Source: Loxodes magnus
Taxonomy: Eukaryota; Ciliophora; Karyorelictea; Loxodida; Loxodidae
Assembly: GCA_946699065.1 (NCBI GenBank)
Contig: CAMPDV010000063.1
Span: 124,001-188,000, forward strand
DNA: 64,000 bases
Direction: 5' to 3'
Part shown: one piece after another, positions 3,610 to 60,166 of the stretch
How the letters are laid out: the number at the start of each line of letters is the position of its first letter
How positions within the stretch are numbered: the first letter of the stretch is position 1
Notes under the pieces: generated by a model
What the model was told of the DNA's origin: nothing
Database searches by the model: none
What the model saw: the letters and a program-made list of their open reading frames with translations, nothing else
Program-made: the position numbers and the translations under genes

Positions 3610-3681
3610 GGCTGCTTGGTCTAGTGGTATGATTCTCGCTTTGGGTGCGAGAGGTCACGGGTTCAATTCCCGTAGCAGCCC
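3610..3681 (+). tRNA. tRNA-Pro (anticodon UGG)
   Basis: The cloverleaf is complete without an intron. The acceptor stem GGCTGCT/AGCAGCC has 7 bp with discriminator C. The D-arm contains TGGTCTAGTGG (box A). The anticodon stem CTCGC/GCGAG encloses loop TTTGGGT, giving anticodon TGG. The T-arm ACGGG/CCCGT has loop TTCAATT and includes box B. CCA is not encoded, as usual in eukaryotes. It decodes CCN proline codons and is the only RNA gene in the window that I can assign firmly. Confidence 0.97.
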
Positions 3682-3682
3682 C

Positions 3683-15554: not shown

Positions 15555-17099
15555 TCATCTTCTTTCTCTTCTGATTATTTCTGCTTGCAGACTGTCTATT
15601 TCAACTTTCAAAATTTATATATAATCTTCTTGACTATAAGAATACATAAATGCGAAAATGTAATTATCTTTTACTTTTACTTATGTAAAACCACTACATT
15701 CTATAGGAAGAATTCCTTCTTACCAATTCATACTATTTCTTTTATAAATTTATCTAGATTGCTTATTAAGTTCATAATTACCTCCTAATATTATTAAAGG
15801 CTCTAAATTTATAGCTGCATTGCTAATAGGTTATGGTAATTAAAAATCAAACTACATTCATTCGTCTTATTAAATATTATATTTAAATATTTCTTTTATA
15901 ACTTAATTTCCTTATTTTTTTCCTCCAAAAGAATAAATATTTTATTCTTATTTATCAGTTACAAGAAATTAATCAATAATTCCATATGGTAATTAAGAGC
16001 ATCATTTTCAACTATTTTCACTTTCTAATCTTAAACTTTCTACTGTAGCTAACTTATTTCTATTATTATCAACTCCACCTACCACAAAAATACTTCCTTA
16101 AGCTGCTGCTATTCCTGAACCACATCTAGCTTTATTTATATCATTTAATTATTTACATCTACCATCATATTCCACTTATCAAGTTGTCTTAATTACTTAA
16201 TTATTTATTTCTCCTCCTACTAGATAAAGTTTATTTTCATACTCTACACTTCCTCAAAAAAGTGGAACTTTTTATTATATCTAAACTAACTTATAATCTT
16301 CTTTTTCTATATCGAATAAATGTAAATTATAGGAATCACTAGCGAAGGCATAAATAAAATTACAAATTTTTTTATTTCTTTAATCTAAATTTTAATTTAG
16401 AATTCTTATATTTTATATACTCTCTTCTTATTATTTTTAACTTTACTATATTATTTCTTATGCTTTCATTTTTTTGTTCCTAGATACGGAGTCAAAAATC
16501 TGATCCATTAGATTTATCAATTAACTTTTATATTATTCTAATTGTTATATTTATTAATTTCCTTTATTTTATACAGTTTAATAATCTTCTTAAGTTATTA
16601 CTTAGCTATTATTTCTTAGATCATTTATATTAATTTTATCTTACTATTTTAGAATATATTCAAGTTTTAATATTTTTTTATTTATATTTTTTATACTTTA
16701 TTTCAATTCAGTTTGAACTATATTGCCTTGATTAAAGATATGGTGATTTAAGAGAATTAAAGCTTATTAAGCAATAAAAGAATGTTATTAATTAATCTTT
16801 TATAGTTACTATTTCAAGTTTATTCTTTAAGACTTTAACATTTCTAAGTTTTACTCTACTTATTAATTTCATTATATCATCTATTTATATTTATTTAAAA
16901 GTTACTCGTTATTTTTTAAATCATTAGGATTTTATTTAGAGACTGCCTGGCAAATAGGACATTTATTTTATTTGTTTTTTCTAAATTCCGCGAACAAACA
17001 ACAAATGCAGACAGAATGATTGCAAGGTAATATTTTAGGAATTCCAACCTATGAGTCGAATTTTTCAGTACAAGATACACAAATATCTTGGTTCTACAT
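15555..17099 (-). CDS. RING finger - coiled-coil - kelch protein, copy 1
   Basis: 514 residues, ATG at 17097-17099, TGA stop at 15555-15557. Residues 7-50 form a textbook C3HC4 RING: C7-x2-C10, C26-x-H28, C31-x2-C34, C47-x2-C50, pointing to E3 ubiquitin ligase activity. Residues about 60-250 are Gln/Lys/Glu-rich coiled coil. Residues about 260-500 carry kelch repeats with Gly-Gly pairs at 295-296, 341-342, 392-393 and 439-440, a beta-propeller that would bind substrate. About 60 Gln are TAA/TAG and fewer than ten CAA/CAG. Trp 77, 282, 307, 364, 366 and 414 are TGA; Trp 459 is TGG. Residues 414 and 459 hold the same position in successive kelch repeats, each followed by a Leu-Pro. It is the only gene in the unit open in all four copies. 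The substrate is unknown. Confidence 0.93.
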
Positions 17100-17310
17100 T
17101 ATTATTATTTTAAACTAAAAAATGAGATTAAATATAATTAGTTTCAATATAATATTTATTAGTTTAATACTTTTTAGTTACATTTTAATAATATAATTAA
17201 TATTTTAATTCTAATAATTAATTAAAATATTAAAAAGTAATTATAGTTTTCTATTTTTCCTTGTTGATTATATAATAGCTACTATATTTATTTATTACTA
17301 TTATTTTATT

Positions 17311-17668
17311 TAAATAGGGTGGAAAGCCCTCTCCTTCGGATGTTGCTTGGAGGCCCAGCAAGGCAACAAAAAAATGAGCATGGACGGAGGATAAATCGGA
17401 AGAAGAGAAACCAGAAACAAGAGAAAGAAGATGTGACAAGTTGGAGAACTCTGAATGCCAGGAGGAAACTTTCTTCATCATAGGTCGGAGGAATGTACCC
17501 GTAATCACATATTGCATCCTATGCTTTGGAAGGAAAAATTATAGGGACGTACCGCAGGAAGAGGAAACAAGGAAAGAGGAAAAGAGAGACCTATAAAAAA
17601 AATTTCGACGTTAAATAAAATTAATTTAAAGAGCTGCGCACCAACGAGAGTGCTACGCGCTCTATAAT
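17311..17668 (+). repeat. Structured GC-rich repeat alpha, unit 1
   Basis: Starts TAAATAGGG, followed by an AGGG/CCCT stem. Ends in a hairpin (17630-17663: arms AGAGC/GCTCT, GCG/CGC, CAC/GTG) and then TATAAT. It lies about 210 nt upstream of the kelch start codon, pointing away from it. The plus strand also gives an open protein-like frame ending AAHQRECYALYN then TGA. The one-base length differences among relatives argue against that frame being the conserved feature. Confidence 0.6.
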
Positions 17669-17818
17669 TGAATTTATTTATTTATTATTTCAACTTTTTA
17701 ATTTTTATTACTTTATTGAAAATGTTAGCAAGTTTAATTTTTTAAACCAATCATTTTTAAAGCAGATTAGTTTCCTAGATAAATATAATAGAAAATATAA
17801 TATTATTATAATTTATTT

Positions 17819-18130
17819 TAAATAGGCAGGAGAAATCCTCTCGATATCATTGAAAGAAACTCAGTAACTAGGAAATACTCTGTGTGAAGACATGAACAAG
17901 AATCTTGGCTAGTGCCAAGTATGTCAAGAACGAGGCATCAAGTAACAATACGTTGAACAATGCCTGAGATTAAGGTCTCTTTAGGAAAGCACTCCAACAC
18001 TGTCCCTATAAGAGAAAAGAATTTCCAAGGGATGTTAGCACAGGGAAGAATGTACCATAATAAATTTTTAAACTTTAAAAGACTTTAATTAAAGAGCTGC
18101 GCGCTATCGTAGTGCTACGCACTCTATAAT
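17819..18130 (+). repeat. Structured GC-rich repeat beta, unit 1
   Basis: Starts TAAATAGGC, then AGGA-GAAA-TCCT (28-39 past 17800), a 4-bp stem with a GNRA tetraloop. Ends with a hairpin at 18093-18125 (arms AGAGC/ACTCT with one mismatch, GCG/CGC, CGC/GTG, CTA/TAG) and TATAAT. The body is unrelated to alpha. Confidence 0.6.
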
Positions 18131-18286
18131 GTTAGTTGTTGTAGTTATTGTAAAATAATAATAGATTAAATATATGATTTTAATTAAAAATATTATTATA
18201 GATAATTACTTATTTTAGTAATAAATCTTAATATCAATTATTTACGCTATTTATTTGGTTATAATAAAAATTAATTTTCGATAAAA

Positions 18287-19064
18287 ATGGAGTTATATGT
18301 TTACCTTTCAAAGAATCAACTAAGAAGTTTAACTAGAAACAGCGAAAGGAAGTGAGAAAATTCAAAAGCAACAAAAAGAATCTAGTTTTTCATCGCAAGG
18401 TAAAATCTTGATCAGATATGTTGATAAAAAACTAAGAAGGAATCTAATTTAAAACTTTAAGGTAAAATAGACTAAATATAATAAATAATCTAAAGGTATG
18501 AAGAAAACATTTCTAATTAAGGAAATAAATCAGAGAATTAATTAATAATATTGATAAAGAATAATGAGATATTGATAAAAATCAAAGCTATTTAAAAAAT
18601 TGTTACTAGCAGAATGTTGATTTTATTAGTAATCACAGTCAATATCTTGTCAAGAATAAAATATTCTTTCAGAAAGTGACTAAATAAAATATTATGATAA
18701 AAAATTAGGCAAATTTAAAGACTGATATAAATTTACAAAAGAGCATAGTAAAATTGAAAAAAATAAGAAAAATATTAAGTAAAAAAGATGAAAAAAGGTA
18801 TATGTACTACAAGGAAAATATCCACATTCTACGACTATGGTGAACTTGGAAAAAACTTTCGATAAGAGAACAACAAAAAACTTAAAATATACTAAATAAA
18901 ATTTGAATAACTGAAACTGGAATATACAAATTTAAAATTTATTCAAGAGTTACAGGAAATTATTAGTGGTAAACTTCAAACCAAAAAATTATAGTGCTAT
19001 TTATTACGCAAATATAATGGTAGCAGATATCTGGATGAAAGTCCTGAGTAGCAAATTTTTATCA
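18287..19064 (+). pseudogene. Zinc-knuckle relic D, unit 1
   Basis: Starts MELYVYLSKNQLRSL, homologous to the locus at 8492, and ends in the same G-Trp(TGA)-K block before AGCAAATTTTTA. The knuckle at 18799-18840 has lost three of its four ligands: the CCHC positions now read Tyr, Tyr, His and Trp. The C-terminal motif survives as IREQQKT...NKI-TGA-ITETGIY, where the aligned residue at 8492 is TGG. Decayed member of the family. Confidence 0.6.
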
Positions 19065-19349
19065 CTTTAGCTCATTATTATATATAATGGCATTTAAGAA
19101 ACAATTCACCTAAAATAAATCTTCTAACTAACAATAAGATACTTTATTTAGATTTATTCGCTATAATCAGAAAGCAAAAAACTATAGGTTGCAATGCAAC
19201 AATTAATTCTGCAAATAGCAATCCGGATTTAAAAATTAACTATCTATAAAATTATAATAAAACACTGAATACAGTTTTGAGCTTAAAAGCTTCAACACAT
19301 CTAGTTAATCAAAAAATAAAAAGAACATAAAAAAATTAGAAATTAGAAA

Positions 19350-19381
19350 TCTAAATAAAATAAAATAAAATAAAATAAAAG
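19350..19381 (+). repeat. AAAAT microsatellite
   Basis: Five to six AAAAT-type repeats. The copy number is lower in unit 2 (near 34022) and unit 3 (near 48450), so it varies within the array. Confidence 0.7.
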
Positions 19382-19384
19382 CAA

Positions 19385-19884
19385 GTTACGAGTAAAGTAA
19401 TAATTAGTTCATTAGAGATTGAATTATCAAATTTAAATATTAATCAAACATGAAAAAATTAAGCATCTAATTAAGTAATAAAAAGAAGACTAATGATGAG
19501 TTGATCTGTAGAAGGTTAGGACACATAAAATAACTGCTAGAGATACAAAAATTTCAAATTTGTTAAAATAAAAGGTTCTAATAAAACCTAACCAAAATTT
19601 ATTGTACATCCGAATTGAATCTACACAAGAAAAAATGAATGGTGGAGACTAGTTTCTCTAACAAAATAGCAGATTCACAAAAAAGAAGAAAAAAGTAAAT
19701 GTTTGGAAAGAACTGATATTGGAATAAAATACCAATTGTAAAAAAAAGCTATATTAGCAGTCTTAGATATATTATTCCAGATTACGAGTCCTGAAGAAGA
19801 AATGGATGATTTCAACGAGTTTTACTATGGTTCTTGAGACTTTTAATAAACTAATATGCGACAAATAAAAGCGACGTTATATTA
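19385..19884 (+). CDS. Unidentified frame E, unit 1
   Basis: The plus-strand frame (possible ATG at 19493) reads MMS-Trp-SVEGQDTQ, then TRKNEWWRLVSLTKQQ, DIGIKYQLQKKAILAVLDIL and SPEEEMDDFNEFYYGS-Trp-DF. Four Trp are TGA and two TGG. Acidic and Trp-rich; no family recognised. It follows zinc-knuckle relic D on the same strand and could be part of the same element. Unit 2 carries a one-base deletion within the frame, so not all copies are functional. Confidence 0.45.
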
Positions 19885-20072
19885 ATAAATATTATTATGC
19901 AATAATATATTTTATAATTTACTTGCACATTATCACTTATAAAAATTGAAATTTAATGTATACTTTATTATTAATTAATAAAATAATTTAGTAAATTAAA
20001 GCATTAACTATAATTTTAAATTTTTATCTTTTTCTTAAAATTAAATATTTAATATAATTCTAAATATTTATA

Positions 20073-20948
20073 TTGTATTTTCATTCTATATTTATAATAA
20101 TATTCTATATTTATAAATTCAAAGATATCTTATCTCATGTAAGACCTGCAAGGAATCATAAATTGGAACTAAGGGGTTTTAGAACAAACCTTCAATTAGA
20201 AAAAAAATTGCTCAATTTTCAGGACTTTAAGAATCCTCAGATCAATTTCTGGAGGGTAGCTTAAGGAGTTCAGGAAAAGTATGGAGTATCACTCCCCCTG
20301 ATTCCTTTCAAACTCTATTACGTAGAATCGGACCTTGGATAAGCCTATACCATGTATAAGAGGATGATATGCAACATCGGGCTGGAAGATTCTCATTGGA
20401 TTGCCCGAAATTTTAGTGAAGGGTAAATTCCCACTAGATTCTAAGCCGAAGCACTACAATTAGTTAGCCCGATGGAGCTGGAAAAGCTTTGCCTTAGTCA
20501 GGAGTGGAAGGAAAATTCTCACTGAGATTTTATGGCTTCGATCAAAAGAAAAGAAGTGTTCTATTGCGATAGAGTTCAAAGTTCTTCGGACAAGTTGGAT
20601 TTAAATCAGCAATATATCATGGAGTGATGAACGACACGGATTGGTGTACAGTGAAGTATCTCCTACAAGCCCATTAACTGTATATTCAGTCCGTTTGTAG
20701 TGTACTAGTTCTAACGGGCAGTCTTTTACACCACTCCGTCCCTTCACATACCCCTTCCAAAGTGAGAAAAATATTCTAAGAAATATTAAGAGCTAATGGA
20801 GAATTAGGTTGCTCTGATTAAGAAGAACCTATTCAGAAAGAGATGGACCCGTAAATTGGAATTTAAGGCTTTTAACGTGAAGCAACTATTGACTAACAAG
20901 AAATTGAACTGGAAGGTAACTGAAGAAAAATCCTGCTAATAAGTAACG
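20073..20948 (+). other. GC-rich island F, unit 1 (coding status unclear)
   Basis: About 850 nt with much higher GC than the surroundings. One plus-strand frame reads protein-like throughout (GVSLPLIPFKLYYVESDLG, GLEDSHWIARNFSEG) with TGA at 20523, 20625, 20628, 20652 and 20763. However, a minus-strand frame reads equally well. Differences between units are mostly replacement changes, and units 2 and 3 have one-base deletions. So it may be a dead gene, a non-coding RNA, or an insertion of foreign composition. No family recognised. Confidence 0.35.
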
Positions 20949-21018
20949 AAATATTAAATAGCTAGTTTGAAAATTGATTAATCTTTAATTTATTAGTAAA
21001 TCAATATTTATTAATCTT

Positions 21019-21036
21019 ATTATTTCAAATTTTTAA
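21019..21036. repeat. Target-site duplication of delta-1, left
   Basis: An 18-bp direct repeat (ATTATTTCAAATTTTTAA) identical to 21346-21363 on the other side of the insertion. Confidence 0.8.
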
Positions 21037-21345
21037 TTATTAATTAATTTCAACTTAAAGAGTTTTGGACTGCAACTTCTTGCAGTTTAACAACCCCAAC
21101 ACTCCCTTCATGGGATAACGGGGATATCCTGTTGCTTTCGAAAAGCAGCTGCCAGGGAGCTCCATCGCTATGGGCAGCCAGGCTTCAAGCCCCTACCATG
21201 AGTGGATAATCAAAAGGAAGGCGTTCCCTTGCAAAGGTTGACTTTGACCAGGGACTTTCTCAGCGACAGGAAAGGAACTTGTTCTTAACCATAAAATCAG
21301 AAAGTATGATTCAGAAGGTCAATCTCAGCTCTCACCATTTTTTTA
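21037..21345 (-). mobile_element. SINE-like element delta-1, unit 1
   Basis: About 290 nt of GC-rich sequence plus an AT-rich tail, flanked by an 18-bp direct repeat. Minus orientation: head ATGGTGAGAGC, hairpins TGCTTT/AAAGCA (loop TCG) and CTGCAA-GAAG-TTGCAG near the 3' end, then CTCTTT and an A/T-rich tail. The same element sits inverted at 27457-27767. Unit 3 has the unfilled site. An AT tail and long target duplications fit target-primed retrotransposition of a short non-autonomous element. Confidence 0.75.
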
Positions 21346-21439
21346 ATTATTTCAAATTTTTAAATGATTGAAAGATTTATTTGATTAAAAAGATAATAGC
21401 ACTTATAAAAATGAATAATTACGTGATATTACCATTAAT

Positions 21440-21935
21440 AGGATCATTTTATTAAAGAGTTTAATTTCTAAAGAAAGTATTCACTTCAAATTTGATAGGT
21501 CTTTATTGTCATGAATCTTTGATGATTTTTAATTCTTTCATGATTTTGCCCTATAAATAATAACCCAGCTATTTTTTGTTGGATTAATTAATTATTTATA
21601 AATATAAGGGAGCATCTTTATTGACTTGAAATTTTTCCACATAAAGTAAATCTTCTTAATTATAATAACTACTGAATAAGTGTTCCCATTTATTTTCTAT
21701 TATTCTTAAGCTTTTTTGATTGGTAATAAACTCTTATTTTATATCCTACTCCTTGTAATATCGACAAATCGTTATTCTTCGTTAGAAATTATCATTTTTT
21801 TAGTACTATTTTTCTATTTTCATTATATCATCGAGTACTTAGATTTGCTCCAATTTACATTTTCTGATATTTTAGAATTTCTTTACGATTTATACTGTCA
21901 AAAAAATTTTCCTTAATTTGCTACAGGAAAGAGTT
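21440..21935 (-). other. Possible minus-strand frame G, unit 1
   Basis: The minus strand reads KEILKYQKMQIGANLSTRW, LSILQGVGYKIRVYYQS and HERIKNHQRFMTIKTYQIW in one frame with several TGA as Trp; a second frame is also open. No family recognised. Conserved in all units with few changes. Confidence 0.3.
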
Positions 21936-22083
21936 TAGAGTTAATTCCTATCTTAAAGATAAGTTTACATATTTAAAAATTCCATAGAATGTATAAAATC
22001 TTAATTTCGTTAATAAAGATTACTAATATTTTTGTAATTACAATTTTATTTTTAATAATAATAATATACACTTAATTAAAGTG

Positions 22084-22865
22084 TTTGTGTCTTTGAGATA
22101 TTTCAATCTCATTTCCACTGAGTTCTAGTGATCGCTCCTTGATGCTTAAAATAAAAGTTCGGGTCATACAGTTTTTTTGGAGTTCTGGAACTCGAATGGA
22201 AAATTCTTCCTTCCGTCGTCACATAAATTCTTGCTAATTCTCTTCAGACTTCTTCGCTGTTTCTCTTCATCTTTTTCTTGCATATCGTGCAACTCTTGGA
22301 TCTATGGAATCTTTATTAGTACAGGTAACATCTCTTAAGAATCCTTCTAATATTGGTTGGCTCTATTTGCCTATCGTCTTCTACTTCCATTTTTATTTCT
22401 TAGATTAGAGGTTCTATTCTTTTTTGTCCAAGTTGCTATACTTCGATTTCTTATTTAACTAATCTTTCTTCATTATTTAACTTTTTCCTAATAATTTTTT
22501 GTTTTCTTATCTTAATATTTTTACTTCTTCTTACAGAATACATACAGATTTCAAAAGACTTTCAATTAATAATTATTCTTCATTTGTCTGTTTTTGCATC
22601 GTTTTTGGATTCTCTTATTCCCTATAGTTACTTGGTATCGGTTTACGAAGAAAGTTCAATATTTTATTATTAGTTTTAATCTGTTTATGCTTATTTAAGT
22701 ACTTATTTTATTTAAGATTGTCTTAAATTTTCAACTATTTGAGGTTATTAAGATTAAGAAGATTATTATTTTATTAAAGAAGAAGTGATGGATGAAGAAT
22801 TAGAAGACTCTGGTTCTTGCTCCTTTATCTATGGAGCCTGCACTCTTCTTGAGACCTTCTGCCAT
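22084..22865 (-). pseudogene. Zinc-knuckle family member H, unit 1
   Basis: Minus strand. A Ser/Gln/Pro-rich N-terminal half (KEQEPESSNSSSITSS) and a Glu/Lys-rich middle lead to a knuckle at 22289-22330 reading CYLYQQRFHRSKSC, with the second Cys changed to Tyr. The family C-terminal motif follows: SEEV-Trp(TGA)-RELARIYVTTEGRIF. The ATG at 22865 (MAEGLKK) is one base out of phase with this frame, so either an early indel occurred or the start lies elsewhere. Confidence 0.5.
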
Positions 22866-23194
22866 TTTTTTTGTTAGAATTTTATTTATAATATTTACTA
22901 AGAAATACATTACTTTTTATTATTTATTATGATAATAAACATTTTAAATAAAAAATAGTATAAAGATCTATAAAATTAGTTAATTTTCTATTAAATTTAA
23001 ATTAGATATGACTAGAATAAATAAATTAGATTTTAGAAAGTAAAATATAATTATTTAATTTATAAGATTATTACTTTTATAAATATAATATAAATAGCAT
23101 AGTATTTATCATTAAATTACATTTATTAAATAATAAAATACATACAACTAAAATATTAGATAAATTGAATAACTTAAATATAATAGTTGTTAAA

Positions 23195-23965
23195 TCATAA
23201 AATATATAAGAAAATTTAAATATGTTTTTAAGTGTTATTTATTGCCTTTACTTTAACTTTTTCTATAGTTATACTTGAACTACCAAAATAAAAACTGACT
23301 GCTACATATAAATTTCCATCAGTAAATTTTGCTGGCTCGTTGAAGGCTATTCCACAATTTTAATCTTCCACTATAAAAGAAAGTTCGTCTTTGCATGTAT
23401 CTACTATCATCTTTACTTTTAAATTATTTTATATTTATTTAATCTATTTTCCATATTTTGGACCATTACTTCCAGAATTATGTCTTGTTTCTGCATATCC
23501 TACATATCAACTTCAACCTGTTTCAAAATCTGAAAAACATTTGGAAAAATCTTAATTACAATGTTTAGAAACTCCTAATTTGCAATCAGACATTACATGA
23601 AGGTAAATTTTAAATTCAAAAACATATAATCTATCTTTTCTAAGAGGTTAGTCTAGCATGTTAGTATCAAATCCACTATTTTTCGATTTTTTAATAGTTC
23701 TTTGATCTTCAGAAACGATAGTATGAGGCGAGCATTTATTTTAATCTCAGTTGAATTTAATTAAATAGCTTAAATTAGGAAATATTTCATATTTCGCCAT
23801 TAAAAGAGGAACCCGAGAAAATTAACTTGACTCTTGATTTTTTAAAATTTTCTATTTTAAAAGTTTCCTAAGATATAGAATTTTGCAAAAATGATATTAC
23901 TTTAGATTTATCTACATCTTTAAAATGATTTTATCTTTTATTAAATAAACATGAAAATAATAGTT
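23195..23965 (-). CDS. SPRY (B30.2-like) domain protein I, unit 1
   Basis: The minus strand carries a SPRY domain: DCKLGVSKHCNQDFSKCF, then ETG-Trp-S-Trp-YVGYAETRHNSGS, then DTCKDELSFIVEDQNCGIAF and NLYVAVSFYFG. The order (Gly-Trp core, GYAETRHNSG loop, D-x-L-SF strand, G-AF, LYVAVS) fits the SPRY fold, a protein-binding domain often joined to RING ligases. Trp codons at 23507, 23513 and 23747 are all TGA. A possible stop TGA lies at 23195. One base near 23805 is extra compared with the copy at 2222, so the N-terminal part (NSISQETFKIENF) is out of phase with the domain. The start is not identified. Confidence 0.6.
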
Positions 23966-24502
23966 AGATAAATATACAAAATAAATTAAAGCAATAAAAG
24001 ATAATTAATATCTTAATAATTATATTAAAAACAAATAATTCTTTTAATCTAAAAGATAAATTAAATGTAATTCTTCTTATATAATTAAACATTCAAACAT
24101 AAAAAATTGCAAATATTTATTTACTATTTTTAATGAGAAATATAGTTAAATTTAAACTAAAAATTAAAGATAAAATAATTTTAGATACATTATAAATAAA
24201 TTATAAGGAAAATTAAATTAAATATGGAAAGACAATAATTTAAAACTCTAATTACATTAATATATCAAGTGAAAATAAGGTAAATATTTGTAAAGCTAAT
24301 CAATCATGGTTAAAATATTAAATGCGAAAATGCTTAAAAAAGTAAATTTGATTGTTCTTTTTAATCAAGTATAGAGATATTCAATCAAATAATAATTAAA
24401 TTCTACTAACTAAAATTAATTTAATAATATTTAAAATGAAAGCATTCAATTTTAAGTATATAAATTAAATTGCTATTTAAAATGTAAAAGTATATAAATA
24501 AA
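23966..24502. other. AT-rich spacer, unit 1
   Basis: Nothing recognised between the SPRY gene and the Cys-rich frame. Confidence 0.4.
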
Positions 24503-25012
24503 TTAGCGTGATACCACCATTTTTTGGATATTATCACGATTAATAAAAAAACCTAAATTAACTAACAGTGGTAGTCTTGAAAATTTTCTTGCTTCATCTG
24601 GTCTCTTTGATCATCTTCTTCACTCCATCTTTAAAATCAAAATTATTGTCTAATTCTTGCAATTCTTTCCGAAGATTGGAGTTGGAAGGGATAAGAGGAC
24701 ATTTCGAATTTGCTTTAAATGTAGTAGTAGAAATGAATTCACCTGGATAAAAGTTATAATTGTCTCAATCATGTCTTTGATACTTTGCGATTTCTTATCA
24801 GATTAATTACATGCGGATCAGGATAGCTCTTAGATTTTGACATCAGTGCTACTAGTCAGATTCTAGAGGCGATAGGGAGAGTCCTCAAACAAGTAAAGTT
24901 TATCACACAATGGGCATGTCCTTCCTTGTTTGTGATGGCACCCATTGCAAGAGTACTTGCAATGCAGACATAACTGTACAGGATTACCTACTGACTAGAG
25001 ATAAAGATCCAT
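24503..25012 (-). CDS. Cys-rich protein J, unit 1
   Basis: Minus strand from ATG at 25010-25012: MDLYLQSVGNPVQLCLHC, then KYSCNGCHHKQGRTCPLCD. The pattern C-x2-C-x3-C-x2-C-H-H-x5-C-x2-C resembles the second half of a RING or another zinc-binding fold, but the first Cys pair of a RING is missing. If the first in-frame TGA (about residue 63) is a stop the product is small; if it is Trp the frame continues through a hydrophobic helix (IETIITFIQVNSFLLLHL). Several unit 1/unit 3 differences are synonymous under this code (CAG/TAG, TGC/TGT), hinting at past selection. Confidence 0.4.
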
Positions 25013-25029
25013 TAATAAACTATATAATA

Positions 25030-25905
25030 AAATAGTAGAAGACTTAAAAAATTATCTTTAAATCATCTCCTCAAAGATAAGTTAGAAAAACAGAAGCCCT
25101 CTTCTTTAAATCATGCGTATTAACTATACTATCCTAACCTTCTTGATTAATAACATAGAAAGAGAAAAGAAAGATTATTCATACACTTCTCATATCCATT
25201 CCTCCAAGAAAAATAGATAAGCACTATTATCTTTCAGAATATAAATTGAAATATCTTAGAAAAAACAAAAATTAACTGAGGAAGAGTTAATTAAAGAGTT
25301 CCCTACGAATGATGACTTAAGCCAATTGACATAGAATAAATTCTTAGAAAGGACTGCAAAAAACCTCAGAAATAATTTTCTGTTTAATAAGGACTTTTAT
25401 AGAACTGAAAAAAAGTATGATTAGCTTTAGCATTAATTATTTTTTCTCTTTAAACATAAATATACAAACACTCAGCTCCATTTCTAAGAGGAATTATAAA
25501 TTAAAGTGAAGAATTAGAATGAAATCTGTTATTAAAGAAAGAAAGAAATAATTAAGTAAAATCAAAACCAAGAAGCAAGAATAAAGAAATTAAAGCCACT
25601 ATGCAATACTAACTAACGACAGTTAAAATAACTTAACTCAATGATATAATAAAAGTAGAAAAAATGCAAGTTAGATTAAAATAGTTAAGAAAAAAATACT
25701 GCATCTGTCATAACAAATGACATCTTAAGAGAATTTGTAGAAAAATTAAAACAATAATCAAAAAAATTTGAAAGTAAACAATTACCTTTGTCCAACATGT
25801 GATGAAGTAAGATACTCAATCTGAAGAAGTAGCATAATCCTGCAAATGAACTGCTTTTAAGCTTTAGAATCTGAAAACCGACTTGCTCTTCAGGAGGAAG
25901 AGAAC
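25030..25905 (+). pseudogene. Zinc-knuckle relic K, unit 1
   Basis: Nucleotide similarity to 6415 at its 5' end. The knuckle at 25697-25738 reads YCICHNK-TGA-HLKRIC: the first Cys is Tyr, and the usual Gly before His is TGA. The upstream part is Lys/Glu-rich in several frames. It starts just beyond, and diverges from, the minus-strand gene J. Confidence 0.45.
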
Positions 25906-26469
25906 TGTTTAAAGAAATATTTTATTTTCCTAGTAAATCTGTTAATTTGGTTTGATTTGTAAATTAATTGGACAATGTTTAGAATATTACTTTAAATATA
26001 TTAACTAAAATATAATAAAATCAAAATAGAAAAATAATGCTTGTTATAGAAATAGTTTTTATAAAATTTATATAAATATAAAATATTTCAATTTTAAATA
26101 AGAAAATAGATAAAAATGCTATTAAATTTAGAAAATCACAAAATAAAATTAATTTAAAATATTATGTACAAACTTTTAATAAATGCTTAATATATTTTAA
26201 TAAGGAATAGTAGAAAAATGAAAATAAAGCAACATTTGCTTATTATTTCTTACTATATTAATTTTCTAAATTGTTTATAATATTTTGATATTCATAATTT
26301 TTAACCAAAAGATTTATTGGATTTTTAAATTTTAATATATCTAATCTTTATTTAGTTATAAACCTTTAGTTAATTTATTTTATTTTATTTTTAAATTTTA
26401 ATTTTTTAATATTTTTAAATATCATAAATAATTAAGAGTTTAAATTATTATTTCTATTATTTATAAGTT
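25906..26469. other. AT-rich spacer, unit 1
   Basis: Nothing recognised. Confidence 0.4.
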
Positions 26470-27130
26470 AAAATGAAAAATTTATTGAAAAAAGTCTCTT
26501 CTTAAAAAGATTCATCTCAGCCAAACTACAATCAGTAAAAAATACTTTAAGACCTTAATATTATACAATAAGAAAATTTTAAACCTTAAGAAAATTATAA
26601 GAGATCAAAAGAAAAATTGAGTACCTAATGATGAATTAAAAGTACAAAAAACTGAAAATAAGTAGGTAGCGAATATCAGAATCTATTAATTAGAAACAAA
26701 ATTAAACCAATTCGCAGAGCTGGTGAAAGCATATTCCTCTAAAAGATATCAATGAAAGATAAGATGATGTGAAACAACAACCTACGATAAATTATATTCC
26801 GTATCGGAAAATAATTAGATGCTGATATTGTAAGAGGTCAAGACAAAAAGTGCGAAATTGTTTCTAATTTAGACTAAAAGAAAAGATAATCATAAAAAAT
26901 TAATGGGAAAATATATTCAGACTTTAACGCAATTAAGAAGACAAAATTAACGAGAAAAAATACTACAACTAAACAAAGAAACTTTATATATCTAATATGT
27001 TGCTAATGAATTCAATAAGGAATGAATATGAATCGACCTATTGGAAAATATTAGAAAGAACAAGCTAAAATTCATCAAAATTTAAGATAGACATGATCCA
27101 AGCAAATTTGAAGTTAATAATTTTATTCTA
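26470..27130 (+). pseudogene. Zinc-knuckle relic L, unit 1
   Basis: The knuckle at 26820-26861 reads CWYCKRSRQKVRNC with Trp as TGA and the His ligand changed to Gln. The upstream text (QPNYNQQKILQDLN, RNKIKPIRRAGES) is in another frame from the knuckle. Decayed family member. Confidence 0.45.
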
Positions 27131-27289
27131 CATTAAATTTTTATTCATGATGAACCTAAATTTGTAGAGTCCGTCAATTAATTGGTATTAATATTATTAT
27201 TAATTAAAGTTATAATCAACTAAAAGTTTTATAAATGTTGCTTTATATTAATTTAAAACAGTTCAAACTGTCAGTTTTTATTAAAGTTT

Positions 27290-27442
27290 AGTTCATTAAT
27301 CTGCTATTTTGCAAAAGGAAACTCTTCCCCTACCCTCCATCTAATAAAAGCTTTTGCTTTTTCCAATCTTTTTGAAGTTCCTATTAATATTTATTCAAAA
27401 TCCTGCTAATTCTCTTCAAATTCCTTCAACCTTCTTGTCTTT
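27290..27442 (-). pseudogene. C-terminal fragment of a zinc-knuckle family member (P), unit 1
   Basis: The minus strand reads EGI-Trp(TGA)-RELAGFWININRNFKKIG, matching the C-terminal motif of member H (EEV-Trp(TGA)-RELARIYVTTEG). The SINE-like delta-2 has inserted directly beside it. Confidence 0.45.
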
Positions 27443-27456
27443 TAAACCTTTTGAAG

Positions 27457-27767
27457 GATAATTAAAAGGATGGTGGGAGCTGAGATTGACCTTCTGAATC
27501 ATACTTTCTGGTTTTATGGCTAGGAACAAGTTCCTTTCCTGTCGCTGAGAAAGTCCCTGGTCAAAGTCAACCTTTGCAAGGGAACGCCTTCCTTTTGATT
27601 ATCCACTCATGGTAGGGGCTTGAAGCCTGGCTGCCCATAGCGATGGAGCTCCCTGGCAGCTGCTTTTCGAAAGCAACAGGATATCCCCGTTATCCCATGA
27701 AGGGAGTGTTGGGGTTGTTAAACTGCAAGAAGTTGCAGTCCAAAACTCTTTTAGTTTAAAATTAAAT
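27457..27767 (+). mobile_element. SINE-like element delta-2, unit 1
   Basis: The same element as delta-1 in the opposite orientation, flanked by a 14-bp direct repeat (TAAACCTTTTGAAG at 27443-27456 and 27768-27781). It contains the stems AGGAAC/GTTCCT, TGCTTT/AAAGCA and CTGCAA/TTGCAG, and ends CTCTTTTAG plus an A/T-rich tail. Absent from unit 3. Confidence 0.78.
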
Positions 27768-27805
27768 TAAACCTTTTGAAGTTAAAGTAACATTTTATTA
27801 AATAC

Positions 27806-28206
27806 TAATAAAATGGATGTCAATTGCGTTCAAGTGAATTAGTAGGTATAATTGTGTATTGCATTGCGAGTAATTTCGCACTAGATGCCACCACAGGAAG
27901 GGTGGAAAAGTTCGGAAGAGACAAACCTAACTTGCCCGAAGGTTCTTACTAGCATTATGAACGTTTGATTGATAGGCCTACTAATGATTTAACTACTAAT
28001 TCTTGCTTGGATCTTATTAAAAAGACTTGAGTATTTAGTTCAAAATTCAAGAATAATCTTTAATAAGCAAATTCCCCAATTTGGAGAAACTGACGTGATT
28101 ATTGGACAGCTAGAATGACAACATGAAGTATGAAAATACTTTTTTTAATATTAAATGCTGATATTGAAAGAGCTGCGCGCCAACGAGAGGCTACGCGCTC
28201 TATAAT
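27806..28206 (+). repeat. Structured GC-rich repeat gamma, unit 1
   Basis: Shares only the 3' end of the family: hairpin 28169-28201 (arms AGAGC/GCTCT, GCG/CGC, GCC/GGC, loop AACGAGA) and TATAAT. The 5' boundary is uncertain and lacks an obvious TAAATAGG start. Confidence 0.5.
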
Positions 28207-28399
28207 CATATTTATTAGTTTTACTTATTTTCTTTAAATGTAGGAAAGATTTTAGACATCAGTTCATCTATTCATTCTTTTTTTTAATTTTGAAAGAATA
28301 ATATTTTCAGATTTTTTTAATCTTAAAGCTATTTCAGTTCTTAAATTCATTTAATAATTTATTTTATTAGTCATGATATCAGTTTTTTTTACTTTAGTA

Positions 28400-29075
28400 A
28401 TCATTGCAACTAGCTCTATTGTTAATTAAACTTTGAAAAGTAGAAAGTAGACTTTGATCAGCTATCTTTAATGGCTATCAACCTTCAGTAAGAGGTTCAT
28501 AAACTTAAGATTTTGAACAAAAATCTTTTTTAATAAAATAGCAAAAATAAAATCAAAGTGCATCAAGAATGAAGTCTTAAGAAAGAGTGATGCAAGGGCA
28601 ATGAAACTTAAAAAATTAGCAAGTATAATAGACTACAAAGCTACAATAAAAACAAAAGAGGTAAAAAAAGCATTAAAAATAGAACAAATTTAATAAAAGA
28701 AAATTCCCAAGATATAATGGGAATTGAAAAAGACCCACTGGAATAAAAAATTGTAGGAAAAATAGCCAAAATTAAAAGACTATGCTATTGATGTCATAGT
28801 AAATGTCATCTATGAAGAAAATGTTCTTTCTTTTAGAGACTTAAGGAATAATCATGATAAAACTAGAAAAGAGAAAAATAAAAAAGGCGAAAACTAGATT
28901 TGATGCAGAAAGAGCGGAGAGATATAAAGGTTGAAATGAAGTGTGGATTTAGGGGAATTGGGATGATAATCGAAAATAGATCATGATGAGCTGAGCAGAA
29001 TATGAGAAAGAATAAGACTCTCAAGTTCTAGAGCTTGATAAAAACTGGATATTTTTAACTAAAAAATTTTCTTTA
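28400..29075 (+). pseudogene. Zinc-knuckle relic M, unit 1
   Basis: The knuckle at 28783-28824 reads CYWCHSKCHLWRKC with both Trp as TGA and all four ligands intact. Downstream, in another frame, GWNEVWIQGNWDDNRKQI matches the family C-terminal motif. Upstream text is Lys-rich. The zinc site is complete but the frame is broken after it. Confidence 0.5.
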
Positions 29076-30217
29076 AGTAGTGATCTGCATAGCCCTGCAA
29101 ACATTTTAATTAATAATAATAATAATTTTTTATTTTATAATTTTAAAAATTTTAAATCTTTTAGCAATTGACAAAATTTTAAATTTTAAAAAAGTTCAAT
29201 ACTAAGCGTATTAAACTTTATTATTTTTATTTAAAAAGAAATTACTATCTTAAGCTTTCAAAGCCATAAAATTTATTTAATTAATAATTTTTATTTAATT
29301 AATATAAATATAGTTCATTCAGTATTTAAGCTCAATAAATATGAAAATTTATTTAAAATATAATGGATGCTATAGTAATGTTTTTAAAATATTTGTAACT
29401 TTAAGGTATTTAATTAAATTTTTAAGTGACAGAAAAGATGATTTATTTTAATATTTCTTTTTTCAAGTAACTTTCTATAAAATATTTATTTTTAGCATGC
29501 CCTTCATTTTATATTAACTTTAATATATTTATTTTAATTATTTATTTTATTACATCAATTTTTAATATAGATCCCTCTCAGTATCTACATAAGACTTCTC
29601 TTCCAATTTTTTATTTTACTTATGCCTTTTAGTCTTTATTGTAATTTTTAAATATTTTCTTATTTATATCCATGAATTAAATATTAAATATATGTAATTT
29701 TAAATTATTAAGTATTTTATATTTAATTATTATTCATCATATTTATTTAATTTTTCGTTAGAAATAAGTTAAATATTTATAATATCTATTTCTCCTTTTT
29801 ATTAGATTAATTTTTTATTAAATTCTCATTTTTTATATAAATATAAATAATTTTTTTGAAATATATTTCAATTTCTGCTTTTGATTAAATATACTTTCAT
29901 TTCTAAAAGAATATTTCGCTAGATGGTATAAAATTGATTTAATCAATTTTTTAATTACTTATTTAAATCTTTGGATTTTTATGTTTACTTACCTGCATTT
30001 AAAATATTAAAAAGTAACGGCGACTTTATAAGTTATAATTCTTTTTCCTTTCTAGAAAACATGAAATTCTTGACTAAAATATCAATTTTTATGATTTATT
30101 TTTTTCTGAAATAAATCATAAATACTAATTAAAAACTTCTTATAATTTTAAATTTTACTTAAAAAAGTAAAAAGATAATTTATATATATCTTAAATTAAA
30201 TAAATATATTTTAATTT
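29076..30217. other. AT-rich spacer closing unit 1
   Basis: Low-complexity AT-rich DNA up to the stop codon of the next kelch gene, almost identical to 43746-44887. No feature recognised. Confidence 0.45.
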
Positions 30218-30227
30218 TAATTTTATT

Positions 30228-31772
30228 TCATCTTCTTTCTCTTCTAATTATTTCTGCTTGAAGACTATTCGTTTCAACTTTCATAATTTATATATAATCT
30301 TCTTGATTATAAGAATACATAATTGCAAAAATGTAATTATCTTTTACTTTTACTTATGTAGAACTATTACATTCTATAGGAAGAAATCCTTCTTACCAAT
30401 TATTACTATTTCTTTTATAAATTTATCTAGATTGCTTATTAAGTTCATAATTACCTCCAATTATTATTAAAGGCTCTAAGCAAACAGCTGCAATGCTAAT
30501 AGGTTATGGTAATTAAAAATCAAGCTACATTCATTCATCTTATTAAATATTATATTTAAATATTTCTTTAATGAATTAAATTCCTTACTTTATTCCTCCA
30601 AAAGAATAAATATTTTCTTCTTATTTATCAGTTACAAGAGTTTAATCATTAATTCCATATGGTAATTAAGAACATCATTTTCAACAATTTCCACTTTCTA
30701 ATCTTAAACTTTCTACTGTTTCTAACTTATTATCATTATTATCAACTCCACCTACCACAAAAATACTTCCTTAAGCTGCTGCTAATCCTTAACCTGCTCT
30801 TGCTTTATTCATATCATTTAATTACTTACATCTACCATCGTATTCCACTTATCAAGTTGTCTTAATACTCTAATTATTTATTTATCCTCCTACTAGATAA
30901 AGTTTATTTTCATACTCTACACTTCTTCAAAAAAGTGGAACTTTTTATTATATCTAAACTAACTTATAATCTTCTTTTTCTATATCGAATAAATGTAAAT
31001 TATAAGAATCTCTAGTGAAGTAATGAATAAAATTATAAAGCTTTTTATTCCTTTAATCTAAATTTTAATAATGAATTCTTATATTTTATGTACTCTCTTC
31101 TTATTATTTTTAACTTTTTTCAATTATTTCTTATGCTTTTTCTTTTTTGTTCCTAGATACGGTGTCAAAAATCTGATCTATTAGATTTATCAATTAACTT
31201 TTATATTATTCTAATTGTTATATTTATTAATTTCCTTTATTTTATACAGTTTAATAATCTTCTTAAGTTATTACTTAGCTATTATTTCTTAGATCATTTA
31301 TATTAATTTTATCTTACTATTTTAGAATATATTCAAGTTTTAATATTTTTTTATTTATATTTTTTATACTTTATTTCAATTCAGTTTGAACTATATTGCC
31401 TTGATTAAAGATATGGTGATTTAAGAGAATTAAAGCTTATTAAGCAATAAAAGAATGTTATTAATTAATCTTTTATAGTTACTATTTCAAGTTTATTCTT
31501 TAAGACTTTAACATTTCTAAGTTTTACTCTACTTATTAATTTCATTATATCATCTATTTATATTTATTTAAAAGTTACTCATTATTTTTTAAATCATTAG
31601 GATTTTATTTAGAGACTGCCTGGCAAATAGGACATTTATTTTATTTGTTTTTTCTAAATTCCGCGAACAAACAACTAATGCAGACAGAATGATTGCAAGG
31701 TAATATTTTAGGAATTCCAACCTATGAGTCGAATTTTTCAGTACAAGATACACAAATATCTTGGCTCTACAT
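30228..31772 (-). CDS. RING finger - coiled-coil - kelch protein, copy 2
   Basis: Same 1545-nt frame, start and TGA stop as copy 1, with compensated length throughout. The RING residues are unchanged, and all six in-frame TGA tryptophans are kept. Differences concentrate in the C-terminal kelch half, for example the Ser-Met-Asn-Trp site becomes Ser-Asn-Asn-Trp. Confidence 0.92.
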
Positions 31773-31983
31773 TATTATTATTTTAAACTAAAAAATGAGA
31801 TTAAATATAATTAGTTTCAATATAATATTTATTAGTTTAATACTTTTTAGTTATATTTTAATAATATAATTAATATTTTAATTCTAATAATTAATTAAAA
31901 TATTAAAAAGTAATTATAGTTTTCTATTTTTCCTTGTTGATTATATAATAGCTACTATATTTATTTATTATTATTATTTTATT

Positions 31984-44897: not shown

Positions 44898-46442
44898 TCA
44901 TCTTCTTTCTCTTCTAATTATTTCTGCTTGAAGACTATTCGTTTCAACTTTCATAATTTATATATAATCTTCTTGATTATAAGAATACATAATTGCAAAA
45001 ATGTAATTATCTTTTACTTTTACTTATGTAGAACTATTACATTCTATAGGAAGAAATCCTTCTTACCAATTATTACTATTTCTTTTATAAATTTATCTAG
45101 ATTGCTTATTAAGTTCATAATTACCTCCAATTATTATTAAAGGCTCTAAGCAAACAGCTGCAATGCTAATAGGTTATGGTAATTAAAAATCAAGCTACAT
45201 TCATTCATCTTATTAAATATTATATTTAAATATTTCTTTAATGAATTAAATTCCTTACTTTATTCCTCCAAAAGAATAAATATTTTCTTCTTATTTATCA
45301 GTTACAAGAGTTTAAGCACTAATTCCATATGGTAATTAAGAACATAATTTTCAACAATTTCCACTTTCTAATCTTAAACTTTCTACTGTATCTAACTTAT
45401 TATCATTATTATCAACTCCACCTACCACAAAAATACTTCCTTAAGCTGCTGCTAATCCTTAACCTGCTCTTGCTTTATTCATATCATTTAATTACTTACA
45501 TCTACCATCGTATTCCACTTATCAAGTTGTCTTAATACTCTAATTATTTATTTATCCTCCTACTAGATAAAGTTTATTTTCATACTCTACACTTCTTCAA
45601 AAAAGTGGAACTTTTTATTATATCTAAACTAACTTATAATCTTCTTTTTCTATATCGAATAAATGTAAATTATAAGAATCTCTAGTGAAGTAATGAATAA
45701 AATTATAAAGCTTTTTATTCCTTTAATCTAAATTTTAATAATGAATTCTTATATTTTATGTACTCTCTTCTTATTATTTTTAACTTTTTTCAATTATTTC
45801 TTATGCTTTTTCTTTTTTGTTCCTAGATACGGTGTCAAAAATCTGATCTATTAGATTTATCAATTAACTTTTATATTATTCTAATTGTTATATTTATTAA
45901 TTTCCTTTATTTTATACAGTTTAATAATCTTCTTAAGTTATTACTTAGCTATTATTTCTTAGATCATTTATATTAATTTTATCTTACTATTTTAGAATAT
46001 ATTCAAGTTTTAATATTTTTTTATTTATATTTTTTATACTTTATTTCAATTCAGTTTGAACTATATTGCCTTGATTAAAGATATGGTGATTTAAGAGAAT
46101 TAAAGCTTATTAAGCAATAAAAGAATGTTATTAATTAATCTTTTATAGTTACTATTTCAAGTTTATTCTTTAAGACTTTAACATTTCTAAGTTTTACTCT
46201 ACTTATTAATTTCATTATATCATCTATTTATATTTATTTAAAAGTTACTCATTATTTTTTAAATCATTAGGATTTTATTTAGAGACTGCCTGGCAAATAG
46301 GACATTTATTTTATTTGTTTTTTCTAAATTCCGCGAACAAACAACTAATGCAGACAGAATGATTGCAAGGAAGAATTTTAGGAATTCCAACCTATGAGTC
46401 GAATTTTTCAGTACAAGATACACAAATATCTTGGCTCTACAT
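44898..46442 (-). CDS. RING finger - coiled-coil - kelch protein, copy 3
   Basis: Open over the same 1545 nt and nearly identical to copy 2. A change in the RING region near 46371 is silent (both codons Leu). Only a few replacements lie in the kelch half. Confidence 0.92.
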
Positions 46443-58621: not shown

Positions 58622-60166
58622 TCATCTTCTTTCTCTTCTAATTATTTCTGCTTGAAGACTATTTGTTTCGACTTTCAAAATTTATATATAATCTTTTTGA
58701 CTATAAGAAAACATAAATGCAAAAATGTAATTATCTTTTACTTTTACTTATGTAAAACCACTACATTCTATAGGAAGAATTCCTTCTTACCAATTCATAC
58801 TATTTCTTTTATAAATTTATCTAGATTGCTTATTAAGTTCATAATTACCTCCAATTATTATTAAAGGCTCTAAACTTGAAGCACTACCACAAATAGGATT
58901 TGGTAACTATAATTCAAGCTACATTCATTCATCTTATTAAATATTATATTTAAATATTTCTTTTATAATCTATTTTCCTTATTTTATTCCTCCAAAAGAA
59001 TAAATATTTTCTTCTTATTTATCAGTTACAAGAGTTTAATCATAAATTCCATATGGTAATTAAGAACATCATTTTCAACAATTTCCACTTTCTAATCTTA
59101 AACTTTCTACTGTAGCTAACTTATTTCTATTATTATCAATTCCACCTACCACAAAAATACTTCCTTAAGCTGCTGCTATTCCATTACTATATCTAGCTTT
59201 ATTCATATCATTTAATTATTTACATCTACCATCGTATTCCACTTATCAAGTTGTCTTAATACTCTAATTATTTATTTCTCCTCCTACTAAATAAAGTTTA
59301 TTTTCATACTCTACACTTCTTTAAAATGAAGGAACTTTTTATTATATCTAAACTAACTTATAATCTTCTTTTTCTATATCGAATAAATGTAAATTATAAG
59401 AATCTCTAACGAATTAATGAATAAAATTATAAAGCTTTTTATTCTTTTAATCTAAATTTTAATTTAGAATTCTTATATTTTATATACTCTCTTCTTATTA
59501 TTTTTAACTTTACTATATTATTTCTTATGCTTTCATTTTTTTGTTCCTAGATACGGAGTCAAAAATCTGATCCATTAGATTTATCAATTAACTTTTATAT
59601 TATTCTAATTGTTATATTTATTAATTTCCTTTATTTTATACAGTTTAATAATCTTCTTAAGTTATTACTTAGCTATTATTTCTTAGATCATTTATATTAA
59701 TTTTATCTTACTATTTTAGAATATATTCAAGTTTTAATATTTTTTCATTTATATTTTTTATACTTTATTTCAATTCAGTTTGAACTATATTGCCTTGATT
59801 AAAGATATGGTGGTTTAAGAGAATTAAAGCTTATTAAGCAATAAAAGAATGTTATTAATTAATCTTTTATAGTTACTATTTCAAGTTTATTCTTTAAGAC
59901 TTTAACATTTCTAAGTTTTACTCTACTTATTAATTTCATTATATCATCTATTTATATTTATTTAAAAGTTGCTCGTTGTTTTTTAAATCATTAGGATTTT
60001 ATTTAGAAATTGCCTGACAAATAGGACATTTATTTTATTTGTTTTTTCTAAATTCCGCGAACAAACAACTAATGCAGACAGAATGATTGCAAGGTAATAT
60101 TTTAGGAATACCAAGTTGAGAATCAAACTTTTCAGTACAAGATACACAAATATCTTGGTTCTACAT
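58622..60166 (-). CDS. RING finger - coiled-coil - kelch protein, copy 4
   Basis: Open over the same 1545 nt. The RING cysteines and histidine are kept although flanking residues differ (near 60110-60125). Residue 282 is Gln instead of Trp. It resembles copy 1 in some kelch blocks and copies 2-3 in others, a mosaic pattern. Confidence 0.9.

Follow-up and report, generated by a model that had tools for sequence, protein, structure and literature searches.

Tryptophan and stop readings of UGA in a Loxodes magnus RING-kelch gene, with signs of UAA as a second stop

The window, a stretch of 64,000 nucleotides of Loxodes magnus DNA, contains a RING-kelch gene that runs on the minus strand from 17099 to 15555. 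The gene has 515 codons, from an ATG to a terminal TGA, for 514 residues; the plus strand at 15555–17099 gives a different peptide, the kelch frame being that of the minus strand. Measured against curated Pfam cut-offs, the translation matches Kelch_1 (40.5 bits; cut-off 20.1), Kelch_6 (38.9; 25.3) and Kelch_4 (28.3; 21.6). Its RING match (22.1 bits) falls under the Pfam cut-off of 27.3; in the copy at 30228–31772, zf-C3HC4 scores 23.1 against a cut-off of 21. The open frame alone is little evidence for a gene because only TGA can close a frame under code 27. Evidence beyond chance comes from homology (the Kelch_1 score) and from 84 scored matches in the genome, the window copy included. The protein is perhaps a RING E3 ligase whose kelch propeller picks substrates. 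The features of the window are given below; the codon counts are over 54 copies of the gene and do not represent independent events, since the copies are related and partly homogenised.

15555..17099, minus strand: RING-kelch gene copy, 514 codons plus terminal TGA (frame, Pfam matches, paralogues)
16869..16871, minus strand: TGA codon 77, predicted Trp (28 TGA, 5 TGG, 11 TAG, 10 other)
16254..16256, minus strand: TGA codon 282, predicted Trp (24 TGA, 29 TAA, 1 TTA, no TGG)
16179..16181, minus strand: TGA codon 307, predicted Trp (53 TGA, 1 TGG; TGG in distant paralogue L055)
16008..16010, minus strand: TGA codon 364, predicted Trp, the final residue aligned to Kelch_1 (TGA in 52 of 54; TGG in distant paralogue L054)
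16002..16004, minus strand: TGA codon 366, predicted Trp (TGA in 40 of 54, no TGG)
15858..15860, minus strand: TGA codon 414, predicted Trp (TGA in 54 of 54, also in distant L054 and L055)
15723..15725, minus strand: TGG codon 459, Trp (42 TGG, 8 TGA, 4 TAG)
15555..15557, minus strand: terminal TGA, predicted stop (boundary for indels that are not multiples of three, 300 pairs of 41 copies)
23240..23630 (bounds approximate), minus strand: second gene of the tandem unit, SPRY-like (weak match, 20.4 bits; cut-off 26.3)
30228..31772, minus strand: second window copy of the RING-kelch gene (L003), TGA-ended
44898..46442, minus strand: third window copy (L007), TGA-ended
58622..60166, minus strand: fourth window copy (L002), TGA-ended

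The segment from 15500 to 64000 is a tandem array with a unit spacing of about 13.3–14.7 kb and one RING-kelch gene per unit. Many stretches of the units are 96–100% identical and some 60–90%, and further RING-kelch copies lie on many other contigs. Six-frame Pfam scans of 17100–31880 returned nothing besides the kelch gene and the SPRY-like match. The SPRY-like gene itself contains the sequence GGT TGA AGT TGA, read as G-W-S-W with two TGA-Trp codons; its end reads ...ACT TAA..., followed by an in-frame TGA 11 codons on. Either codon may be the stop of this gene: in the three units compared the sequence is alike over the whole stretch between them, both codons included, and in one unit divergence sets in five codons past the TGA. 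Beside the window gene, GC-richer stretches at 17310–17660 and 17820–18130 have ends with similar AGCTGCGC...GTGCTACGC.CTCTATAA motifs, and possibly belong to a short repeat family. A tRNA-Pro (anticodon TGG) occupies 3610–3682 on the plus strand (Rfam, 60.7 bits).

Counting codons in the minus-strand frame (the original prediction had named no strand) reproduced exactly the six in-frame TGA codons of the original prediction (77, 282, 307, 364, 366 and 414), the sole TGG being codon 459. Glutamine is written TAA 53 times, TAG 8, CAA 7 and CAG 2, giving 61 TAA/TAG glutamines where about 60 had been announced, and the terminal codon is TGA as had been said. The original prediction further held that W414 and W459 sit at the same place in successive kelch repeats, each before a Leu-Pro. 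The Leu-Pro does follow both residues; the positions differ, lying 7 and 5 residues ahead of it, respectively.

The meaning of these codons was assessed by comparison of paralogues. Fifty-eight loci, mostly full-length matches, were read first, and 54 with a recognisable end motif in frame with the start were kept; full-length matches had been fetched first. The four left out comprise L054 and L055, whose ends are too divergent, and L056 and L057, whose frame breaks near codon 455; the latter two fell out, like any copy with a net frameshift, because the end motif had to be in frame. The 54 copies divide into 44 that end in TGA (group A) and 10 that end in TAA (group B). TGG occurs in only 3 of the 553 codon columns of this set, each of which has TGA as well in other copies (Fisher p=6e-5). 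In 27 of the 553 columns TAR and CAR codons are both present (p=3e-11), and the eRF1 and Rab genes of the genome likewise read through with TAR as glutamine. Exchange of TGA with TGG is direct at codons 77, 307, 364 and 459, with paralogues of 42–46% identity supplying TGG at two of the TGA codons of the window gene (W307 in L055, W364 in L054). Codons 282, 366 and 414 are never TGG in the 54 copies, and there tryptophan is reached through the kelch scores and the code alone. W307, W414 and W459 are invariant across 14 aligned copies. TAA or TAG appears in some copies in columns 77, 282, 366 and 459, so tryptophan is not strictly required at these positions.

When ten residues were tried in place of TGA, tryptophan gave the top score in five of six kelch-type models (tryptophan versus next-best residue: Kelch_1 40.5/36.8, Kelch_6 38.9/35.5, Kelch_4 28.3/24.0, PF24981 42.4/33.4, PF24681 45.2/43.6); in the sixth, the NANM model, other residues outscored it. 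A PDB search with TGA masked as X aligned the kelch repeats and gave no support for tryptophan: in the five alignments listed no Trp stands opposite codons 282 and 307, and codons 364–414 lie beyond the aligned part.

Internal TGA codons might instead be removed from the mRNA, as short introns or by editing, with UGA left as a stop alone. Introns of L. magnus are indeed very short, with a mode of 17 nt (section 9 of PMC11441545), and introns of 16–17 nt are present in other genes of this genome. The TGA codons of the kelch family lie, however, within conserved kelch motifs, with homology continuous on both sides and TGG alternating with TGA among paralogues, and editing is unneeded since a paralogue has a genomic TGG at the same position. 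We give this explanation next to no credence. Paralogue comparison and kelch-model scores support the central claim of the original prediction, that TGA serves as tryptophan and as stop within one gene while TAA and TAG specify glutamine.

The reading of the terminal TGA as a stop is supported by the distribution of insertions and deletions. In 300 random pairs drawn from 41 group-A copies (three divergent ones being excluded), indels that are not multiples of three amount to 0 per kb over the 1542 nt of coding sequence. Past the terminal TGA, frame-breaking indels jump to about 42 per kb over the first 30 nt, followed by 22 per kb over the 90 nt after that. Although intact frames were favoured when the copies were chosen, the jump at the TGA is independent of that choice. 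The codons preceding the stop tell a similar story: TAA, TAG and TGA are absent from the last 19 codons in all 54 copies, with the nearest TAA at exactly −20, and glutamine at −10 is CAA in all 30 copies that have it there (elsewhere, TAR makes up 3106 of 3529 glutamine codons). This is as predicted by PMC11441545 (section 9), which describes L. magnus transcripts as depleted in UGA and UAA in the 20 or so codons before the stop.

These observations also bear on a rival account in which the family consists of pseudogenes in decay, or of a satellite that codes for nothing, and its in-frame TGA codons are ordinary nonsense changes. Such an origin would suit the very high copy number and the arrangement of part of the family in tandem, with a unit of about 14.7 kb, as well as the out-of-frame stretches of L043 (a copy included among the 54 and absent from the 41) and the frame-breaking indels found in 3 of 16 full-length TAA-ended copies and in the partial L056 and L057. 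It would also suit the moderate level of pN/pS, about 0.5 and above 1 in two 50-column blocks. It does not suit the pairs of the 41 copies, which lack non-triplet indels over 1542 nt and have many past the TGA (copies with a net shift being omitted), nor the frame-specificity of the constraint (median pN/pS 0.51 in frame, rising to 0.80 and 0.89 when the frame is shifted), nor the retention of TGA at codon 414 in all aligned copies, down to 42% identity. Decay is thus a very improbable account of the family. Across the 44 copies, pN/pS is 1.19 in columns 350–400, 1.52 in columns 150–200 (where synonymous changes are few) and 0.20 at the RING end; one kelch stretch may be diversifying, and the out-of-frame stretches of L043 add to the pN/pS signal.

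The TAA-ended copies raise a separate question. Including six more copies outside the 54, group B has 16 full-length members, and all 16 carry TAA at the homologous stop codon. In ten of them examined, the next in-frame TGA lies 29 to 157 codons on, at a position that differs among copies. Seven group-B copies placed in a tree form a single clade (support 1.0). By parsimony with one outgroup, a dN/dS-like ratio is 0.40 on the group-B side and 0.37 on the group-A side. Thirteen of the 16 have no indel in 1542 nt, and 9 of these 13 show indels of 1–3 nt within about 125 nt past the TAA. The 13 intact copies differ by 23 synonymous and 46 nonsynonymous changes, a synonymous share of 0.333 against 0.223 expected (p=0.023), which indicates that the lineage stayed modestly constrained after the change to TAA. 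In the remaining three (L048, L052 and L053) single-base indels inside the gene put stretches out of frame; long open frames are left even so, because there are almost no stop codons. L056 and L057, with their break near codon 455, are partial members of the group.

Rab-type genes provide a second test of UAA, since the lipid-anchor cysteines of Rab proteins must sit at the very C-terminal end. From 150 matches, 53 tails were obtained, 43 with a CC, CxC or CaaX end and 10 without. In 33 of the 43, TGA follows the cysteine motif after 0–3 residues, and three have a TAG between motif and TGA. Four have TAA directly after CC, with TGA 0–1 codon later; either codon may be the stop here, a paralogue carrying Ser at that place. 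The other three have TAA, and the 21 or more codons that follow contain no TGA: L101 (ending CLIF), L105 (SCNC) and L118 (KCCN). Inspection of L105 and L118 by eye revealed no evident GT-AG intron that would rescue them. None of the 43 tails ends in a lone TAG; UAG may all the same be a rare stop in Loxodes. Among 36 tails that end in TGA, of which 32 have a lipid-anchor end and 4 do not (some are paralogues, and some may cross introns), positions −1 to −8 hold no TAA and 7 TAG, while positions −9 to −20 hold 18 TAA and 22 TAG (one-sided p=0.025 for TAA versus TAG near the stop; p=0.13 versus CAR codons).

A further case is pelota (L095, TIGR00111), where removal of a 17-nt intron raises the score from 205.4 to 234.4 bits and extends the match to the end of the model. 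The spliced gene ends ...ATG ATT TAA, and TGA does not recur in frame until 170 codons later. Since a TGA in another frame lies four to five bases upstream, a single assembly error of the indel type would alter this reading. An unspliced, TGA-ended pelota was considered and dropped, the spliced form fitting the model better. The aminotransferase gene upstream of pelota, on the reverse strand, ends GCC AGT TAA AAT TGA, with TAA two codons before TGA.

Taken with the kelch branch, the three Rab-type genes and pelota suggest that L. magnus has two stops, UGA, which doubles as Trp, and UAA, which doubles as Gln and would end a minority of genes, with UAG as sense only, a reading that we regard as fairly probable. 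It would entail that one kelch lineage switched from TGA to TAA and stayed functional, the count being 44 copies with stop-TGA and 16 with stop-TAA, and the resulting code would lie between tables 27 and 28. If UAA stops, gene models that admit UGA only are wrong at the 3′ end of such genes, and the published avoidance of UAA, but not UAG, before stops is explained. The TAA-ended kelch branch would offer a direct test of UAA stop function in karyorelicts. Seah et al. in 2022 are said to have raised the possibility that a small minority of karyorelict transcripts use stop-UAA. We had considered presenting a UAA stop as categorically new and rejected this description for that reason; the UAA part corroborates an existing suggestion and opens none. 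The literature searched on Loxodes and karyorelicts, covered in part, yielded no statement about a UAA stop in Loxodes.

The original prediction had proposed looking in the genome for changes in eRF1 or for a tRNA-Trp(UCA). Two eRF1 genes are present (L096 and L097; L096 scores 405 bits against a release-factor cut-off of 234.7). Both carry the motifs RAQNIKS and FLCENTF, which are those listed for Loxodes striatus in a review table (PMC4695839). The assignment to the karyorelict code 27 is borne out by these motifs and by the publication of code 27 for Loxodes (PMC11441545). The same review links the divergent YCF motif and altered TASNIKS of Loxodes to UGA-only specificity. In the alignment, Loxodes eRF1 has Phe at human Tyr125 and Ala at human Glu55. 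Release by human eRF1 mutants, listed in Table 1 of PMC4698671 as a private communication, is 100, 34 and 100 percent on UAA, UAG and UGA for Y125F, and 75, 35 and 80 percent for E55Q. The equivalent Phe125 and Ala55 would fit loss of UAG release more than loss of UAA release. The eRF1 evidence is mixed, because the mutant data favour UAA release and the review has UGA-only release; on the latter account we withdrew the mutant data as clear support for a UAA stop.

A pattern search for tRNA-Trp(CCA) gave 140 matches, against 15 for a reversed control. Among the 100 matches listed, 94 fall into two arrays, with at least 48 on contig C67 (period about 187 nt) and at least 46 on C148 (period about 241 nt):

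C67, 482–491 kb (L065–L088): tRNA-Trp(CCA) array (pattern search, ARAGORN)
C148, 155–168 kb: tRNA-Trp(CCA) array (judged by identical matched core)

Each of six C67 loci given to ARAGORN was called tRNA-Trp(cca). A comparison of 24 tRNA-Trp loci, each from C67, showed all of them to be identical in sequence, with A-C as pair 27-43, marked by Rfam as non-standard; the anticodon stem therefore has 4 bp instead of 5, A27-C43 being unformed. A tRNA-Trp(CCA) with a 4-bp anticodon stem has already been noted for Loxodes (PMC13092985 and PMC12005148), and reporter experiments on B. nonstop and C. magnum have shown that such a tRNA reads UGA (PMC13092985). The main text of the L. magnus genome paper lacks the word 'tRNA', and no report of tRNA-Trp arrays was found in the literature searched.

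A strict pattern, which could miss a diverged tRNA, turned up no tRNA-Trp(UCA). Reading of internal UGA by a cognate UCA tRNA (a nuclear or imported mitochondrial tRNA-Trp, or a tRNA-Sec) in place of tRNA-Trp(CCA) would affect solely the tRNA step of the explanation offered below. Searching by pattern for anticodon arms with UCA yielded 14 matches, against 4 in the control; 7 of the 14 have a tRNA-like 3′ side, and a mitochondrial tRNA-Trp(UCA) could be imported. On the other hand, the two of these seven that were examined (L151 and L152) are not tRNAs by ARAGORN and Rfam, and the exchange of TGG with TGA speaks against selenocysteine; we consider such a tRNA unlikely. L151, L152 and five more places share a short repeat in which a UCA loop is combined with a T-arm resembling that of a tRNA, and these repeats are perhaps tRNA-derived.

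Altogether, the window gene appears to be one copy of a large, tandemly repeated Loxodes RING-kelch family that almost certainly follows the known karyorelict code, table 27, UGA being Trp internally and stop at the gene end, and UAA and UAG being Gln. Tryptophan at internal TGA, glutamine at TAR and the end of coding at the terminal TGA are shown by sequence, as are the 4-bp stem of the tRNA, its many gene copies and the identity of the eRF1 motifs with those of Loxodes. At a large distance from the mRNA end the ribosome would decode UGA as Trp, the likeliest reader being tRNA-Trp(CCA) with its 4-bp anticodon stem; near the poly(A) tail eRF1 would outcompete the tRNA and UGA would act as a stop. 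We infer the distance-to-poly(A) rule and the competition between tRNA and eRF1 from published work, and are less sure that the 4-bp-stem tRNA reads UGA than we are of the codon readings. The dual UGA reading is known for Loxodes (PMC11441545) and Parduczia (PMC4967479), and the window gene confirms it; an mBio study has UGA as stop and UAR as Gln in Loxodes (PMC6935857). The gene accordingly gives a plain illustration of an established rule, one in which a paralogue family lets both UGA readings be seen from sequence within one gene.

Compared with other kelch-propeller proteins that have a RING domain, the Loxodes family is alike in its RING-like N-terminus and kelch repeats and unlike in being large, partly tandem and Gln-rich in the middle. 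Its coding resembles table 27 of Parduczia and Loxodes in that UAA and UAG are Gln, UGA is Trp or stop by position, and UGA and UAA are depleted ahead of the stop (PMC11441545 and PMC4967479). It differs in that UGA is described there as the only stop, whereas in L. magnus UAA seems to end one clade of the kelch paralogues, pelota and three genes of Rab type. The 4-bp-stem tRNA-Trp(CCA) of Blastocrithidia, Condylostoma, Blepharisma, Loxodes and Amoebophrya has the same unformed first anticodon-stem pair; in L. magnus the unformed pair is A27-C43 and the genes stand in tandem arrays. Condylostoma, with table 28, is similar in that stop codons double as sense by position and UAA can end genes. 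All three codons can stop in Condylostoma (PMC4967479), whereas in L. magnus no gene was seen in which UAG alone marks the end, and UAG is present immediately next to the stop.
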